The notes beneath the pieces are model-generated. The model worked only from the letters and a program-made list of their open reading frames with translations. It was not told the origin of the DNA and searched no databases. Positions 5,463 to 39,079 of a stretch of 64,000 nucleotides of DNA are shown here, in pieces. This stretch comes from Kosmotoga olearia TBF 19.5.1 (GTDB lineage: Bacteria > Thermotogota > Thermotogae > Petrotogales > Kosmotogaceae). Location of the stretch: positions 1,488,001 to 1,552,000 of the forward strand of contig NC_012785.1 in the NCBI RefSeq assembly GCF_000023325.1, read 5' to 3'. Made by a program: the position numbers and the translations under genes. Position 1 is the first letter of the stretch. Every line of letters starts with the position of its first letter.

Positions 5463-6716
5463 GTGTCCGACATCAGTCTTTTTGAAAATGCTTTAAAGCA
5501 ATTTCGCAAGGCTGCGGAAGTTATGGAACTCGATCCCTGTATAGCCGAGGTTCTTTCGCACCCTAAAAGGGAGCTTACAGTCCATTTCCCAGTAAGAATG
5601 GATGATGGAAGCATTAAAGTATTCACCGGACACAGGGTCCAGCATAACATTGCAAGAGGACCAGCTAAAGGTGGTATCCGTTATCACCCAAGCGTTACTC
5701 TTGATGAAGTCAAAGCTCTCGCTTTCTGGATGACATGGAAATGTGCCGTTGTTGGGATTCCCTATGGCGGTGGTAAGGGTGGAGTTGCTGTTGATCCAGC
5801 AGAACTTTCACCAGCTGAATTAGAAAGACTCTCTCGAAGGTTCTTCTCCGAAATTCAGGTAATAATCGGTGAGGATAAAGATATACCTGCTCCAGATGTT
5901 AATACGAACCCCCAGGTCATGGCATGGTATATGGATACGTATTCCATGAATGTTGGCCATTCGGTTTTAGGAATCGTTACCGGTAAGCCGTTAGATGTTG
6001 GCGGTTCTGCTGGTAGAACAGAAGCAACTGGTAGAGGTGTCAGGGTAGTCACTGAAGAGGCTATAAACTACAACGGCCTTGATCCCAAGAACTGTACAGT
6101 TGCCGTTCAGGGATTCGGAAATGTTGGTTCTTACGCCGCAAAGCTCATAAAGGAAGAAGTTGGAAGCAAAATCATTGCTGTTAGCGATGTTTCTGGTGCT
6201 ATTTATAATCCGGATGGCCTGGATATAGATGATGTTGTAGCCTACCGCGATCAAAACAATGGACTCATTAAAGGATATCCAAAGGCAACTGCAATGACAA
6301 ACGAGGAACTGCTGACAATGGACGTTGACATCCTTATTCCCGCTGCTCTCGAAAACGCGATCACAATGAACAACGTTGAAGACGTTAAGGCAAAAATAAT
6401 TGTTGAAGGTGCAAACGGACCTGTAACCCCAGAAGCTGAAGAGGTTCTCCTTAAAAAAGGTGTCTTCATAGTTCCGGACTTCCTGGCCAACGCTGGAGGT
6501 GTTACTGTTTCATATTTCGAATGGGTACAGGGTCTTCAGTGGTACTTCTGGGACATCGAAGATGTTAGGAAGGCACTTCATAAAATAATGCGCGATTCCT
6601 TCTACAGTGTTATCAACACGATGAGAAAGTATGACACAGATATGAGAACGGCAGCTTACATCGTTGCCATCGATAGGGTAGCAACTGCGACGAAGCTTAG
6701 AGGTATTTATCCATAA
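5463..6716 (+). CDS. gdhA: Glutamate dehydrogenase
   Basis: A 417-aa GDH of normal bacterial hexameric size. The substrate site GPAKGGIRYHP is near residue 66. The catalytic-lysine motif PYGGGKGGVAVDP is near residue 100, and the Rossmann motif VQGFGNVGS near residue 217 is followed by VSDVSGAI. It interconverts glutamate with 2-oxoglutarate and ammonia. Cofactor preference is not certain from sequence. The start is GTG at 5463, preceded by GAGGAGGG at a 6-nt distance. A weak promoter-like TTGAAA/TATGAT (15-bp spacing) lies at 5359-5385. The gene stands alone and is followed directly by a hairpin-array repeat. Confidence 0.96.
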   Translation: MSDISLFENALKQFRKAAEVMELDPCIAEVLSHPKRELTVHFPVRMDDGSIKVFTGHRVQHNIARGPAKGGIRYHPSVTLDEVKALAFWMTWKCAVVGIPYGGGKGGVAVDPAELSPAELERLSRRFFSEIQVIIGEDKDIPAPDVNTNPQVMAWYMDTYSMNVGHSVLGIVTGKPLDVGGSAGRTEATGRGVRVVTEEAINYNGLDPKNCTVAVQGFGNVGSYAAKLIKEEVGSKIIAVSDVSGAIYNPDGLDIDDVVAYRDQNNGLIKGYPKATAMTNEELLTMDVDILIPAALENAITMNNVEDVKAKIIVEGANGPVTPEAEEVLLKKGVFIVPDFLANAGGVTVSYFEWVQGLQWYFWDIEDVRKALHKIMRDSFYSVINTMRKYDTDMRTAAYIVAIDRVATATKLRGIYP

Positions 6717-7004
6717 GAAAAACGAGAATCCGAGAAAACTGCTTCGCAGCGAAGATACGAATCCCTTCGGGATTGTTGCGAACTCCTTCGGAGTTGTTTC
6801 GAACCATTTCGTGGCTGTCACGAACTGCTGAGCAGTTGTCTAAATCGGCTTCGCCGATGATGCGCATCTTCGGCGGGAGGAGCAAATATCAGGTCTAGGG
6901 TTTGGAAAAACCTGAGATTAGGGAAAAAGGGGACAGTCCTCTGTTGGACAGTCCCCATTTTCTATTTCTAGGCTCTCGGCTCTCGGACTCTCGGTTCTCG
7001 TTAT
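6717..7004. repeat. Hairpin-array repeat element, locus A
   Basis: Immediately after gdhA begins CGAGAATCCGAGAAAA, followed by consecutive mini-hairpins. These are CTGCTTCGCAG; AATCCCTTCGGGATT; AACTCCTTCGGAGTT; ACCA...TGGC; AACTGCTGAGCAGTT; ATCGGCTTCGCCGAT; and CATCTTCGGCGG. Spacers are near-constant 6-8 nt strings such as GTTGCG, GTTTCG and GTCACG. The segment ends with heptamer repeats of CTCTCGG (6971-7000) that are the inverted counterpart of the left end. It contains no credible gene. Relatives lie at 14960, 17137, 34560, 38350 and 39080. Confidence 0.85.
6929..6960. terminator. Terminator-like interrupted palindrome built on GGGGACAGTCC
   Basis: GGGGAC-A-GTCC, a TCTGTT loop and GGAC-A-GTCCCC can form a 10-bp stem with one A/A mismatch, followed by ATTTTCTATTT. 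It may end gdhA read-through. The GGGGACAGTCC motif resembles the REP-type palindromes spread by RAYT transposases in other bacteria (resemblance only). Confidence 0.5.
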
Positions 7005-9092
7005 TTAGCTATCCGAAGAGCTTTCGTTGAAGTCTAATGTTCTCTTCACTTTCCTCTTTACATGGAACTCTAACTGATCACCTTCTTGAATATCGTCAAA
7101 GTTCAGGAATTTGATTCCGCATTCTTTGGGTGCGTCTATTCTGGAGACTTCATCTTTGTAATGTTTAAGCGACTCAATTTCACCATCGAATATCTCTTGA
7201 TTGTTCCTGTATATTCTGACGAAACCTTTTTTTGTTACATAGCCATCGAGTAATTGTACACCGGCTATGCTACCAACTTTCTTTATCTTAAACACTTTTC
7301 TGATTTCGCCATGGCCAACGGTTTCATCAATTTCTTCGGGTTCCAGAAGACCTTCAAGGGCTTTTTTGAGGTCATCGATGAGATCGAAGATTACCTGATA
7401 AACGCGGATCTGAACGCCTTCCTCTTCTGCTTGTCTTCGAGCCTGGCTGTCTGGCTTTACTTTGTAACCTATAATTACGGCATCAGAAGCTGCTGCAAGC
7501 ATAACGTCACTTGCGTTTATCGTACCTATTCCAAAATGAACTACCTCGATATGAACTTCTTCTGTTTCCAGTTTGGCTATCGTTTGTCTCAAAGCTTCGA
7601 CAGAACCAAAGGAGTCGGACTTAAGTATGAGGTTCAGGACTTTTGTTTCGTCTTTACCACCGATACGCATGAATTCTTCCAATCTCACGTGACGCTTGCC
7701 TTTCAGTAGCTTTTCTTTCTTTTGTTTTTCCTGAGCAAAGGCCGCTACTTCTCTCGCTTGATCGAGAGAATCTACCACGTAGAGTATGGCGTGAACATCC
7801 GGTACCTCATTGAACCCTATTATCTGAACAGGGTCGCCCGGGACAGCTTTTTTAACACGCTTACCCTTTTCATCTCTCAAAGCGCGAACTTTACCGTATG
7901 TAGCTCCTGCAACGATATAGTCGCCGGCTTCCAATATCCCATCCTTAACTATAACTGTCGCAAGTGGACCAACACCTTTATCAAGCTCAGACTCGATAAT
8001 AATTCCTCTAGCATTTCCTGTGGGAATACACTTTATTTCCGACATCTCGGCCACAAGCAGAATCATTTCCAGAAGTTCGTCGATACCCTGGCCTGTTTTT
8101 GCCGATATGGGAACAACTATCGTATCTCCGCCCCAATCTTCGGGAACGAGCCCGAGTTTTGAAGCAAGCTGCTGTTTGGTTGCTTCGATACTTGCATTTG
8201 GTTTGTCGATTTTATTTATGGCGACTATTATAGGAACCTGAGCGGTTTTTGCGTGGTTGTAAGCTTCAACGGTTTGAGGCATGACACCATCATCGGCCGC
8301 AACCACAAGGATGACTATATCCGTTGCTTGAGCACCTCTTGCTCTCATTTCTGTGAATGCTTCGTGGCCGGGAGTGTCTATAAAGGTTATTTTTTTTCCG
8401 TTTACCTCTACATGGTACGCACCGATTGATTGTGTGATGCCACCAACTTCTTTTTCTGCTATACTGGTTTTTCTTATTCTATCGAGAAGCGTTGTTTTTC
8501 CATGGTCAACATGACCCATAACCGTTACTACCGGGGGACGTTGTACAAGTCTGGATTCATCTTTGTATAGTTCTTCATATTTCTTCTTGAGTGCTTCCAG
8601 CGGGTCAGCCATCTCTTCTTTTTCTATTTCAAGCTTCCAACCGTATTGAGCGGCAATTTGATTAGCGTCTTCAAGTGATAATGACTGTGCGGGGCGTAAT
8701 ATGATCCCTTTCATAAAATGATCTTTCACGATTTTTGAAACAGGTACCCTCATTTTCTCGGCGAGTAAGTCAAGCTTCAATTCATCGGGGGTGATACGAA
8801 GGACTTTTTCCTCACCAGGGATTTTCTCCTCCTGTTTCTTTTTCTTTTTGGGAGTTTCAATTTCTTCTTCCTCTACTTCTTTTTCGGTTTTCTTCTTGGA
8901 AGAAGCTGACTTCTTAATTTTTGCTGCTTTTTCTTCTTCCTCATACAGGCCGACGATTATATTGACAATTTCATCATCTAAAACGGACATGTGACTTTTA
9001 ACAGAGACTCCCAGCTCCTCCAATTCGTCTATAAGTTCCCTGGTAGTGATTTTCAATCTTTTAGCGAGTTCATAAACTCGGGTCTTCGCCAT
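7005..9092 (-). CDS. infB: Translation initiation factor IF-2
   Basis: About 695 aa. It has an N-terminal helical domain ([18 protein letters not shown]), then a Lys/Glu-rich linker (residues about 60-95) and the second IF2-N domain. The GTPase follows, with [12 protein letters not shown] near residue 200, DTPGHEAF and NKID, then beta-barrel domains and the C-terminal fMet-tRNA-binding domain. IF-2 delivers initiator tRNA to the 30S subunit and promotes subunit joining. The ATG at 9092 sits 6 nt after AGGAGGTG; the GTG three codons earlier lies within that site and is not the start. The start overlaps the end of ylxQ, so they are translationally coupled. Confidence 0.98.
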
Positions 9093-14959: not shown

Positions 14960-15411
14960 CGTGGGGTTGCGCCCCGGGGGTTCACGACGTTGTCAGCAGG
15001 TAAGCACGCCAGCGCGTGGGTAAGCCTGACTTCATCAGGGTAAGCGCCTGCGGCCGGGCACGCACGCTTCGCGTGGTTGCGACTGGCTTCGCCAGTGTTA
15101 CGAACTCCTGCGGAGTTGTCCCGACCGGCTCCGCCGGTGACTAGTACTTTGGAAATGCCGCACAGCGGCTCTCTCGGATTCTCGGACTCTCGGATTCTAG
15201 TGTTTTTTGTCGCAAGCGTCTATTATTCCCCCACTCCGAAGGAGTGCCTACCCCTGACTTCGTCAGGCTCACCCCCGGCGCAGCCGGGTTACCCACGCGT
15301 CAGCGTGCTTACCGGCTCCCAGACTCTCGGTTCTCGTTTTTTTGCGTACAACGCACAACGTACAACCGACAACGGTCTTTATCGCTGCGTAGCAGCCTTT
15401 CGGAATGATGA
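14960..15411. repeat. Hairpin-array repeat element, locus B, with two types of array and heptamer repeats
   Basis: About 450 bp without a gene. The first part has GGGG-TTGCG-CCCC, then GGTAAG spacers alternating with CACGC..GCGTG and CCTGACTTCATCAGG hairpins. It then switches to CGA-type spacers with CGCTTCGCG, CTGGCTTCGCCAG, AACTCCTGCGGAGTT and ACCGGCTCCGCCGGT. After heptamers of CTCTCGG (15169-15199) come ACTCCGAAGGAGT, CCTGACTTCGTCAGG and CCCGGCGCAGCCGGG. Their spacers are the reverse complement of the first (TACCC/TCACCC/TTACCC). A second CTCGG block (15321-15336) and four 7-bp units of NACAACN (15344-15374) follow. Confidence 0.85.
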
Positions 15412-30514: not shown

Positions 30515-31439
30515 GTGTGTCCAGAAAAGGCAAGTGCATTCAGTGGGAGATAAACCCACCAAGGCAAAAGCCAGAACCTTGTAGCTTGGTCAGCAAGGGG
30601 GAAGGAAACTGAACTCTTGAAGCCTGACGACAAAGCCATCGGAAGGATGGTGAGGGAGTATCCGGGCCGTAACGAAAGTGAACGCACAGGTAGCCTCGAA
30701 ACCCTTATTCCCGGAAGCCGAATCCATGGTACAGGGATGAAGGCAACATGAATTCACGAAAACTGGATGAAACGTGGATTCATTCTGGCGGGGTGATAGC
30801 GACGGCACGAATACAAGGGTGCACAATGCAACTGGAGAAGCCCTCCTCATCCCTGGGAGAAATCCCTTGAGAAAGGTAGGCCATATAACCAGAATGGGAA
30901 ATTGGCTGAAAGATGAGAGGGTGGCGGATGGGTTCGTAGTAGCGATGAAGGAGGGTAATGCCTCTAGAGCGAAGGAACCCTGCTGTTTGTAGTTTCTCTA
31001 ACAAAAAGGAGGCAGAGGCGAAAATGAGGAAAACGCCTATCACCCTGCAGGAATTGAGGCAGAGGATATATGCCAAGGCGAAGGCTGAACCGGACTGGCG
31101 TTTCTGGGGTTTGTACGTTCATGTATGCAAAATGGAAACCCTCAAACAGGCGTACAAAATGGCTAAAAGAAACAACGGAGCGCCAGGCGTGGATGGAATG
31201 ACCTTTGAAGAGATAGAAGAACTTGGAGTAGAAGAATATCTTCAAGGGTTAAGAGGGGAACTCCTCAATGGAAATTATTTTCCGTTGAAATACCGAGAAG
31301 TTAGAATTCCAAAAGGCAACGGAAAAGAAAGGATATTGAGGATACCTGCGATTAGAGACCGGATAGTACAGGGAGCATTAAAACTCATTGTCAACATCGA
31401 CCAAAAAAGCATAAAAACATCGAACAAAATTGCGTAGTT

Positions 31440-38447: not shown

Positions 38448-39079
38448 GTGTGCCCGGCATGACATACAACTATAGGGTGAAAGTCCCGAATGCGGGGAGC
38501 GAGATAAGCATTAGCTGAGGGCAAGGGTGTCACTGGTAACGGTGAATCTGAAGGAAGCCTAAGGCAAAATCTGGAACTGAACGAAAGTGACCAGTGTTGG
38601 CCGGTAGAGTGGGTAACCTTGCCGTGTATGGGGAAGCCCGAGCTCCAACTCTACAGGTTTGGATGGCAGACGAACCCGTAGTAGTGTTGAACCTCTCTGA
38701 AAGGAGAAGGGACTATCGCCTTGAGCGATGGGGGTAACAGGAACCGAAAGGGTCTGTTACTTGCGAAGGGGTGAAGGGTTGAGGAAATGGCACAAAGGGA
38801 AGCGAGTATAACAGGAGCCCGTAATGGAGGCTGAAATGCCGACGGTGGTCTGAAATGGCTGGGGCAGGCAAGTAATCCATTATAGGGTTGGGTATATTCC
38901 TCGAAAGGGGTAGAAAACCGATCCTGTTATATGCGACTTATTCTGAAGGCCATGCGGAGGTCGTATAATGGTACTCAACCACCGTCGGAGAATCCGATAC
39001 TCAATCCATGAGCCGTGTACGTTGGCCCGTATGCACGGTTCTGTGAGAGGACGGGGGGTTCTCCCCCCTCCTACTCGAT
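38448..39079 (+). mobile_element. ORF-less group II intron, about 632 nt
   Basis: It starts GTGTGCCCGGCATG, has the conserved GGGTGAAAGTCCCGAA and GGGGAGCGAGATAAGC domain I segments, and shows no reading frame. Domain V (GAGCCGTGTACG...CGTATGCACGGTTC) is at about 39010-39041. Domain VI (GAGGACGGGGGG-TTCT-CCCCCCTCCTACTC) has the expected unpaired A and is followed by the terminal GAT at 39079. The DV/DVI signals make the class secure; boundaries are good to a few bases. Splicing would need a maturase supplied in trans. Confidence 0.85.

Follow-up and report, generated by a model that had tools for sequence, protein, structure and literature searches.

A dispersed family of DNA mini-hairpin arrays with a 21-nt period in Kosmotoga olearia as a candidate REP/BIME-type mobile repeat

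Introduction

What is a string of seven different hairpins, set at almost constant distances, doing between the ends of two convergent genes? The question arises in the genome of the heat-loving bacterium Kosmotoga olearia TBF 19.5.1, whose one contig measures 2,302,126 bp, in agreement with the published genome size (PMC5217533). Within the window, i.e. the whole stretch of 64,000 nucleotides analysed here, the block at 6717-7004 constitutes the entire intergenic gap between gdh (stop codon at 6714-6716) and infB on the minus strand (stop codon at 7005-7007). A first-pass annotation had read this block as an array of TTCG-type mini-hairpins with varying stems, preserved pairing and near-constant spacers, closed as a unit by inverted CTCGG repeats, and knew of no described element with such a layout.

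Results

Layout of the block between gdh and infB

Two CGAGA tracts, the second of them inverted, bracket the block; between them lie, in this order, the seven mini-hairpins, a remnant of the GGGTCTAGGG type and the GGGGACAGTCC inverted repeat. The heptamer-type left tract (CGAGAATCCGAGA, 6723-6735, plus strand) is followed by seven hairpins of the 15-nt type on the plus strand, five of them good and two degenerate. Unit 1 is CTGC(TTC)GCAG (6739-6749), a slot that reads GCCGC or GCTGC in other copies. It is followed by AATCCC(TTC)GGGATT (6760-6774), AACTCC(TTC)GGAGTT (6781-6795), AACCAT(TTC)GTGGCT (6802-6816; a degenerate copy of an AACCAC unit with one A.C and one T.G), AACTGC(TGA)GCAGTT (6823-6837) and ATCGGC(TTC)GCCGAT (6844-6858). 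Unit 7 is the degenerate GCGCATCTTCGGCG (6862-6875), whereas the usual terminal unit elsewhere is CGCC(TTC)GGCG. Reading the letters thus confirmed the seven hairpins with near-constant spacers, and the spacers between the central units (gttgcg, gtttcg, gtcacg, gtctaa) are exactly 6 nt long.

Behind the array lie the module remnant, which contains a CAGGT/ACCTG hairpin (6890-6928, plus strand), and the inverted repeat GGGGACAGTCC-TCTGTT-GGACAGTCCCC (6929-6956), which fits the GGGGWSAS motif of the terminal inverted repeats (TIRs) flanking RAYT-like (TIRYT) genes (PMC3733652). The right tract (CTCTCGG three times plus TTCTCG; 6973-7000, minus strand) is an inverted copy of the CGAGA tract, so that the two ends of the block are mutually inverted. 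No match at gathering score to the Rfam 15 covariance models was found in 6717-7004; elsewhere in the window, Rfam group II intron models match at 30541-30677, 38530-38692 and 39008-39079.

The window contains a second, related array with CACGC, ACTGGC, AACTCC and ACCGGC units (15063-15138, genome 1503063-1503138, plus strand) and a sub-class 2 array with CACTCC, CCTGAC, CCCGGC and CACGC units and cctacc/ctcacc/ttacc spacers (15232-15307, genome 1503232-1503307, minus strand).

A genome-wide family with fixed geometry

A BLAST search with segment 6717-7004 gave 60 matches in the K. olearia genome, and the block is therefore a repeated element and not a single occurrence. In the approximately 0.54 Mb of K. 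olearia sequence read, there were 46 arrays with at least four units. The array also exceeds chance, with 43 chains of at least four hairpins in these 537 kb, which were partly picked around hits, against none in Markov shuffles. As an unbiased sample, 20 evenly spaced stretches of 20 kb (400 kb) were taken from K. olearia and from each of three other genomes. In the K. olearia sample, C(GNA)G/C(TNC)G hairpins were enriched about 30-fold (92 versus 3 expected), other hairpins with 3-nt loops numbered 538 versus 464 expected, and centre-to-centre distances of exactly 21 nt occurred 53 times versus 0 expected. This period results from spacers of exactly 6 nt in 119 of the 152 cases in the 537 kb.

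The copies have a slot order in common: GCNGC, AATCCC, sometimes ACCGGC, AACTCC, AACCAC, AACTGC or AACCGC, sometimes ATCGAC, and then CGCC..GGCG. Three sub-classes differ in stems and spacers and have the 15+6 layout in common; two of them, with other stems than the main one and with ggtaag and gctatg spacer types, show the same loop and geometry as the main one. That the sub-classes share loop and geometry points to shape as the conserved property.

Arrays and other repeat modules form composite mosaics, whose ends are ragged across 62 arrays. A left CGAGA-type tract lies within 90 nt upstream of 38/62 arrays, and the first right tract is inverted in 16, direct in 21 and lacking in 25 of them. 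The proposed closure of the block by inverted CTCGG repeats holds here and at the speE-typA locus described below, but with 16/62 arrays it applies to a minority of copies and is not general to arrays. Other roughly heptameric intergenic tracts (CGAGANN, GTTGTAG, GGTCTAG, GATTGGA) are mixed with arrays in K. olearia, for example at loci L009, L017 and L018, and CGAGA and GTTGTAG tracts are also present in genomes G002 and G009.

Stem, loop and folding of the unit

Across 334 units, the skeleton reads C G A A y x x C T n C G x x r T T G n n n, the inner stem pairs varying by slot. T-N-C accounts for 83% of the loops and T-N-pyrimidine (TNY) for 96%, and 90% of the units have C-G as the closing pair. 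Read on the opposite strand, the loop is C(GNA)G, with N mostly A, then C, T and G. Within an array, the units stand head to tail with their TNC loops on one strand. A UUCG tetraloop was rejected because the arms pair in triloop register around a 3-nt loop; the label "TTCG-type" is accordingly misleading, and the structure is a C(TNC)G or C(GNA)G triloop. With G-C closing pairs and a sheared G.A pair, GNA loops form the extraordinarily stable DNA mini-hairpins (PMC4686876, PMC6479982).

Wobble-type mismatches take the form of G.T on the GNA strand 35 times and on the TNC strand 16 times (p about 0.01), an asymmetry that could instead reflect the shared ancestry of the copies. Over 46 arrays, the folding excess was stronger for DNA, with a mean z of -3.55, than for RNA, with -2.3 to -2.6, and the folding energies favoured the GNA strand no more than the TNC strand.

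The idea that stems vary while pairing is kept is supported. Stem variants in which changes in the two arms compensate each other fully number 31, against a mean of 5.5 and a maximum of 13 in a shuffle control that preserves column make-up, not the relatedness of copies. Part of this pattern, however, is whole-unit exchange between arrays and not point-by-point covariation, since two loci that are 97% identical but belong to different species differ by replacement of the whole unit ACCGGC(GCA)GCCGGT by AACTCT(GAA)AGAGTT. The flanking modules of these loci diverge beyond the CGAGA tract. A 1.2 kb stretch with an ATPase-like gene (genome 1384273-1384427, compared with L054) is 97% identical to another Kosmotogaceae species, array included; judged by this identity, gene and array were probably transferred recently.

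Insertion sites and gene ends

In K. olearia, a composite of about 200 nt (CGAGA tract, array, inverted CTCGG tract) lies between the speE stop codon and a terminator at the speE-typA locus, gene names that rest on our reading of the proteins. In two relatives, only a few bases separate speE from the same terminator, and the composite is lacking. As the terminator is present in relatives that have no block, the block inserts. Among the filled and empty sites compared in relatives, this was the one clear empty site; its borders are inexact and no target duplication was seen.

At gdh-infB, the empty-site comparison reveals only a rearrangement, as the two genes are not neighbours in the relatives. 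In genomes G002 and G006, gdh and prfA lie side by side in convergent orientation and share one terminator, while in K. olearia they lie about 600 kb apart, each with an array at its end (window 6717-7004 and genome 887568-887688), and arrays thus mark rearrangement breakpoints. The gdh-infB gap yielded no strong terminator, whereas the relatives have one after gdh; the terminator search in the block gave one weak match (minus strand, 6754-6742). Some array copies end in a T run, as at 1384 kb, where eight T follow the last unit.

Of the gene ends at most 150 nt away from an array, 26/32 are 3' ends (p 0.0003, with genes called as long open reading frames). Furthermore, arrays more often follow a gene on the TNC strand (18 versus 8, p 0.04).

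RAYT and other Y1 transposase genes

Only two Y1_Tnp genes were found in the K. olearia genome, both of RAYT type (1341980, L060; 1355579, L061). The 3' flanks of both reach array sequence within about 60 nt; this flank is common to the two copies, which therefore represent one event. On their 5' side lies a GGGACAG repeat close to the RAYT-like element motif (PMC3733652); it is different from the array units, which counts against a RAYT link. The coding sequences of the two genes also contain a GGGGACAC..GTCCCC-type repeat in frame, and their 5' flanks carry AAAATAGGGACAG; this repeat type also occurs at window 6929-6956. In two genomes of genus g4, a 34-aa remnant of a RAYT C-terminus stands directly before an array, and no array was found behind the RAYT gene of K. 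pacifica. Within the family, RAYT genes occur in 6/6 genomes with arrays versus 2/10 without (genome G004 left out, kinship ignored), a co-occurrence that is suggestive.

At two Bacteroidota loci recovered by the unit scan, hairpins flank a Y1 gene, with AAGCCC and AACTCC on the left and AACCAC and AATCCC on the right, and neighbouring copies of this hairpin set exist without tnpA. Across 30 Bacteroidales IS200-like Y1 loci, 6-bp mini-hairpins reach 6.1 per kb within 150 nt of the gene versus 1.4 per kb beyond 500 nt; most have GNA/TNC loops, with the GNA loops lying to the left and the TNC loops to the right. The encoded protein is of the IS200/IS605 type with the Y---Q--HH motif of subclass 1.2, whose elements have been described as generally without terminal structures (PMC6006769). 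One Bacteroidales locus (L122:941-2390, G042:C200) carries its Y1 gene between AAGCCC/CCACAGG/AACTCC and AACCAC/CCCCGC/AATCCC, with tnpA-less copies on both sides, and looks like an insertion sequence plus MITEs of this same subclass. These genomes were chosen by a stem-sequence search; the shared AACTCC and AACCAC stems are therefore not independent evidence of homology, and we do not claim homology between the Bacteroidales and the K. olearia hairpins. The K. olearia RAYT genes do not have a hairpin set of the Bacteroidales kind on both sides. A Y1/HUH enzyme acting on the Kosmotoga arrays is our best guess, by analogy.

Distribution in other genomes

In the 400 kb samples of the three other genomes, GNA/TNC hairpins numbered 30 versus 12 expected in G002, 24 versus 8 in a genus-g4 genome and 13 versus 2 in a genome of another family, and no hairpin chains occurred in these three (20 x 20 kb each). 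The amplification is specific to the K. olearia lineage, with sparse copies in relatives. A scan for two adjacent units across about 85,000 species genomes returned two contigs of Kosmotogales/Thermotogaceae metagenome-assembled genomes and, besides these, only four Bacteroidota genomes. Two metagenome-assembled genomes (L092 and L097) have one array contig each and no genome-wide family, and a contig of G004 (L046) is 96.6% identical to the K. olearia genome. These three contigs, each about 6.3 kb long and carrying an array, come from bins assigned to other lineages; given the identity of L046, they probably represent either Kosmotoga DNA that was mis-binned or an island with a methylase-like gene that was transferred recently. 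Since the G004 contig is likely mis-binned and the other two genomes are without the family, we base no statement on distribution on them. Searches of phage and plasmid collections gave no match to the array.

Discussion

The observations described above comprise a dispersed family with a fixed skeleton and C(GNA)G loops, exchange of units, insertion and a preference for gene 3' ends. On this basis, we consider block 6717-7004 to be a copy of a non-autonomous intergenic mobile repeat amplified in this lineage, a mosaic of the REP/BIME type that would be handled as single-stranded DNA and moved by a Y1/HUH enzyme, and we assign this reading a probability of roughly 0.55. Its core module would be the 21-nt-period array of 15-nt mini-hairpins. 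Whenever the GNA strand is single, on the lagging strand or in a transposition intermediate, the units would fold into very stable DNA mini-hairpins. A structure-reading enzyme of the Y1/HUH type (RAYT or IS200-like), present now or formerly, may then have moved or copied the block, although we infer this transposase action, which is putative. Homologous recombination would afterwards have shuffled units and modules, and copies would persist where they are harmless, directly behind genes.

Recombination could also have done all of the work. After a single seeding, passive repeats may have multiplied and been reshuffled with no dedicated enzyme, through homologous recombination, gene conversion and slippage of replication on templates that form hairpins. 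The swapping of units and the exchange of modules inside CGAGA tracts between near-identical loci are in line with this explanation, as are the ragged mosaic borders, higher-order tandem copies (e.g. at 132350 and 132519) and the splitting of the relatives' convergent gdh-prfA pair with arrays on both broken ends. Nevertheless, the presence of about 50 copies in unrelated gaps is not readily accounted for by recombination alone, nor is the clean addition between stop codon and terminator at speE-typA, and the constraint on the loop is strong. We therefore regard a purely passive origin as unlikely.

Still less probable in our view is an element acting at the RNA level, transcribed as a 3' UTR, whose hairpins stabilise mRNA ends or end transcription. 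The preference for gene 3' ends and for the TNC strand downstream of genes would fit such a role, and so would the gdh-infB gap with its lack of the strong terminator seen in relatives and the eight T behind the 1384 kb copy. However, the arms pair in the triloop register and not in that of the stable RNA UUCG loop, the strand on which wobble pairs are favoured would be antisense to most upstream genes, the folding excess is weaker as RNA, no Rfam family matches, and the typA locus retains its terminator next to the array. Moreover, REP-like elements also occupy 3' ends, because insertions elsewhere harm genes. Finally, a double-stranded array in which 21 bp, or two helical turns, place palindromes on one face to load a dimeric nucleoid or regulatory protein would account for the exact period common to three sub-classes, yet it is very improbable, as the stem sequence is free to change but the hairpins keep their pairing and their asymmetric loop, neither of which a reader of double strands would need.

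Beyond K. olearia, the mobile-repeat reading may extend to a class of single-strand-DNA repeats defined by shape, with C(GNA)G mini-hairpins and free stems that would be read structurally by Y1/HUH enzymes and that would be present independently in Thermotogota, as tight 21-nt arrays, and in Bacteroidota, as terminal hairpin sets with and without transposase. This generalisation is tentative and we hold it to be doubtful. If the mobile-repeat reading is correct, the extraordinarily stable GNA DNA mini-hairpin would have a clear genomic use in nature, and the arrays would serve as a test case for transposases guided by the shape of a hairpin instead of its sequence, as well as for stem diversification with pairing kept. 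The arrays also account for some of the intergenic repeats in K. olearia and mark rearrangement breakpoints there, and the Bacteroidales data suggest terminal hairpins at some loci of a Y1 subclass described as generally without them.

Comparison with known systems

A CRISPR array was ruled out, as here the repeats differ and the spacers are alike. The d(GCGNAGC) DNA mini-hairpins (Hirao/Yoshizawa, cited in PMC4686876) have the C(GNA)G loop and closing pair of most array units and are described as a chemical motif; in the open-licence literature, we found no report tying them to a bacterial repeat family. Like the arrays, the IS200/IS605-like Y1 elements of Bacteroidales combine 6-bp mini-hairpins with GNA/TNC loops at their ends, varied stems and non-autonomous copies, but their hairpins are 20-50 nt apart and inverted from left to right, whereas the K. 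olearia arrays are tight, head-to-tail and geneless. In contrast to an IS200/IS605-type MITE, there is no autonomous Y1 element with the same terminal hairpins in the K. olearia genome.

A resemblance in overall organisation is to REP/BIME elements with RAYT genes, with which the arrays have in common short intergenic palindromes in many copies, mosaic composites, the 3'-end preference and a RAYT gene with adjoining array sequence. They differ in their unidirectional 21-nt period with different stems and C(GNA)G triloops, and in having no single stem consensus, as the skeleton is shared and the inner pairs vary. Units stand head to tail and not in the alternating (inverted) orientation of BIMEs, and no GTAG tag as in the GTAG REPs of RAYT genes was seen, the units being flanked by CG...G. 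The TIRs of TIRYT genes (GGGGWSAS, PMC3733652) resemble the GGGGACAGTCC inverted repeat at 6929-6956 and the related GGGACAG on the 5' side of the K. olearia RAYT genes, but this resemblance does not concern the hairpin array itself. CGTC-tagged REPs of family CGTC-3 have been reported from K. olearia and M. prima (PMC3733652), and the ATTCTGGA..TCCAGAAT module, which often abuts arrays, fits the description of this family; with a CGTC/TGTC tag, a 9-bp stem starting with A-T and a loop of about 5 nt, the family is unlike the 6-bp stems and 3-nt loops of the head-to-tail arrays.

The initial statement that no described element has this layout therefore needs qualification. Neither the unit strings nor a 21-nt GNA mini-hairpin array turned up in a limited search of open-licence papers, and no Rfam family matches the block, but REP/BIME mosaics have been described and two modules inside these mosaics are known repeat types (PMC3733652). 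Overall, the REP/BIME kind is known, with CGTC-3 REPs already reported in K. olearia, and, within the range of this limited search, the 21-nt GNA mini-hairpin array is new.
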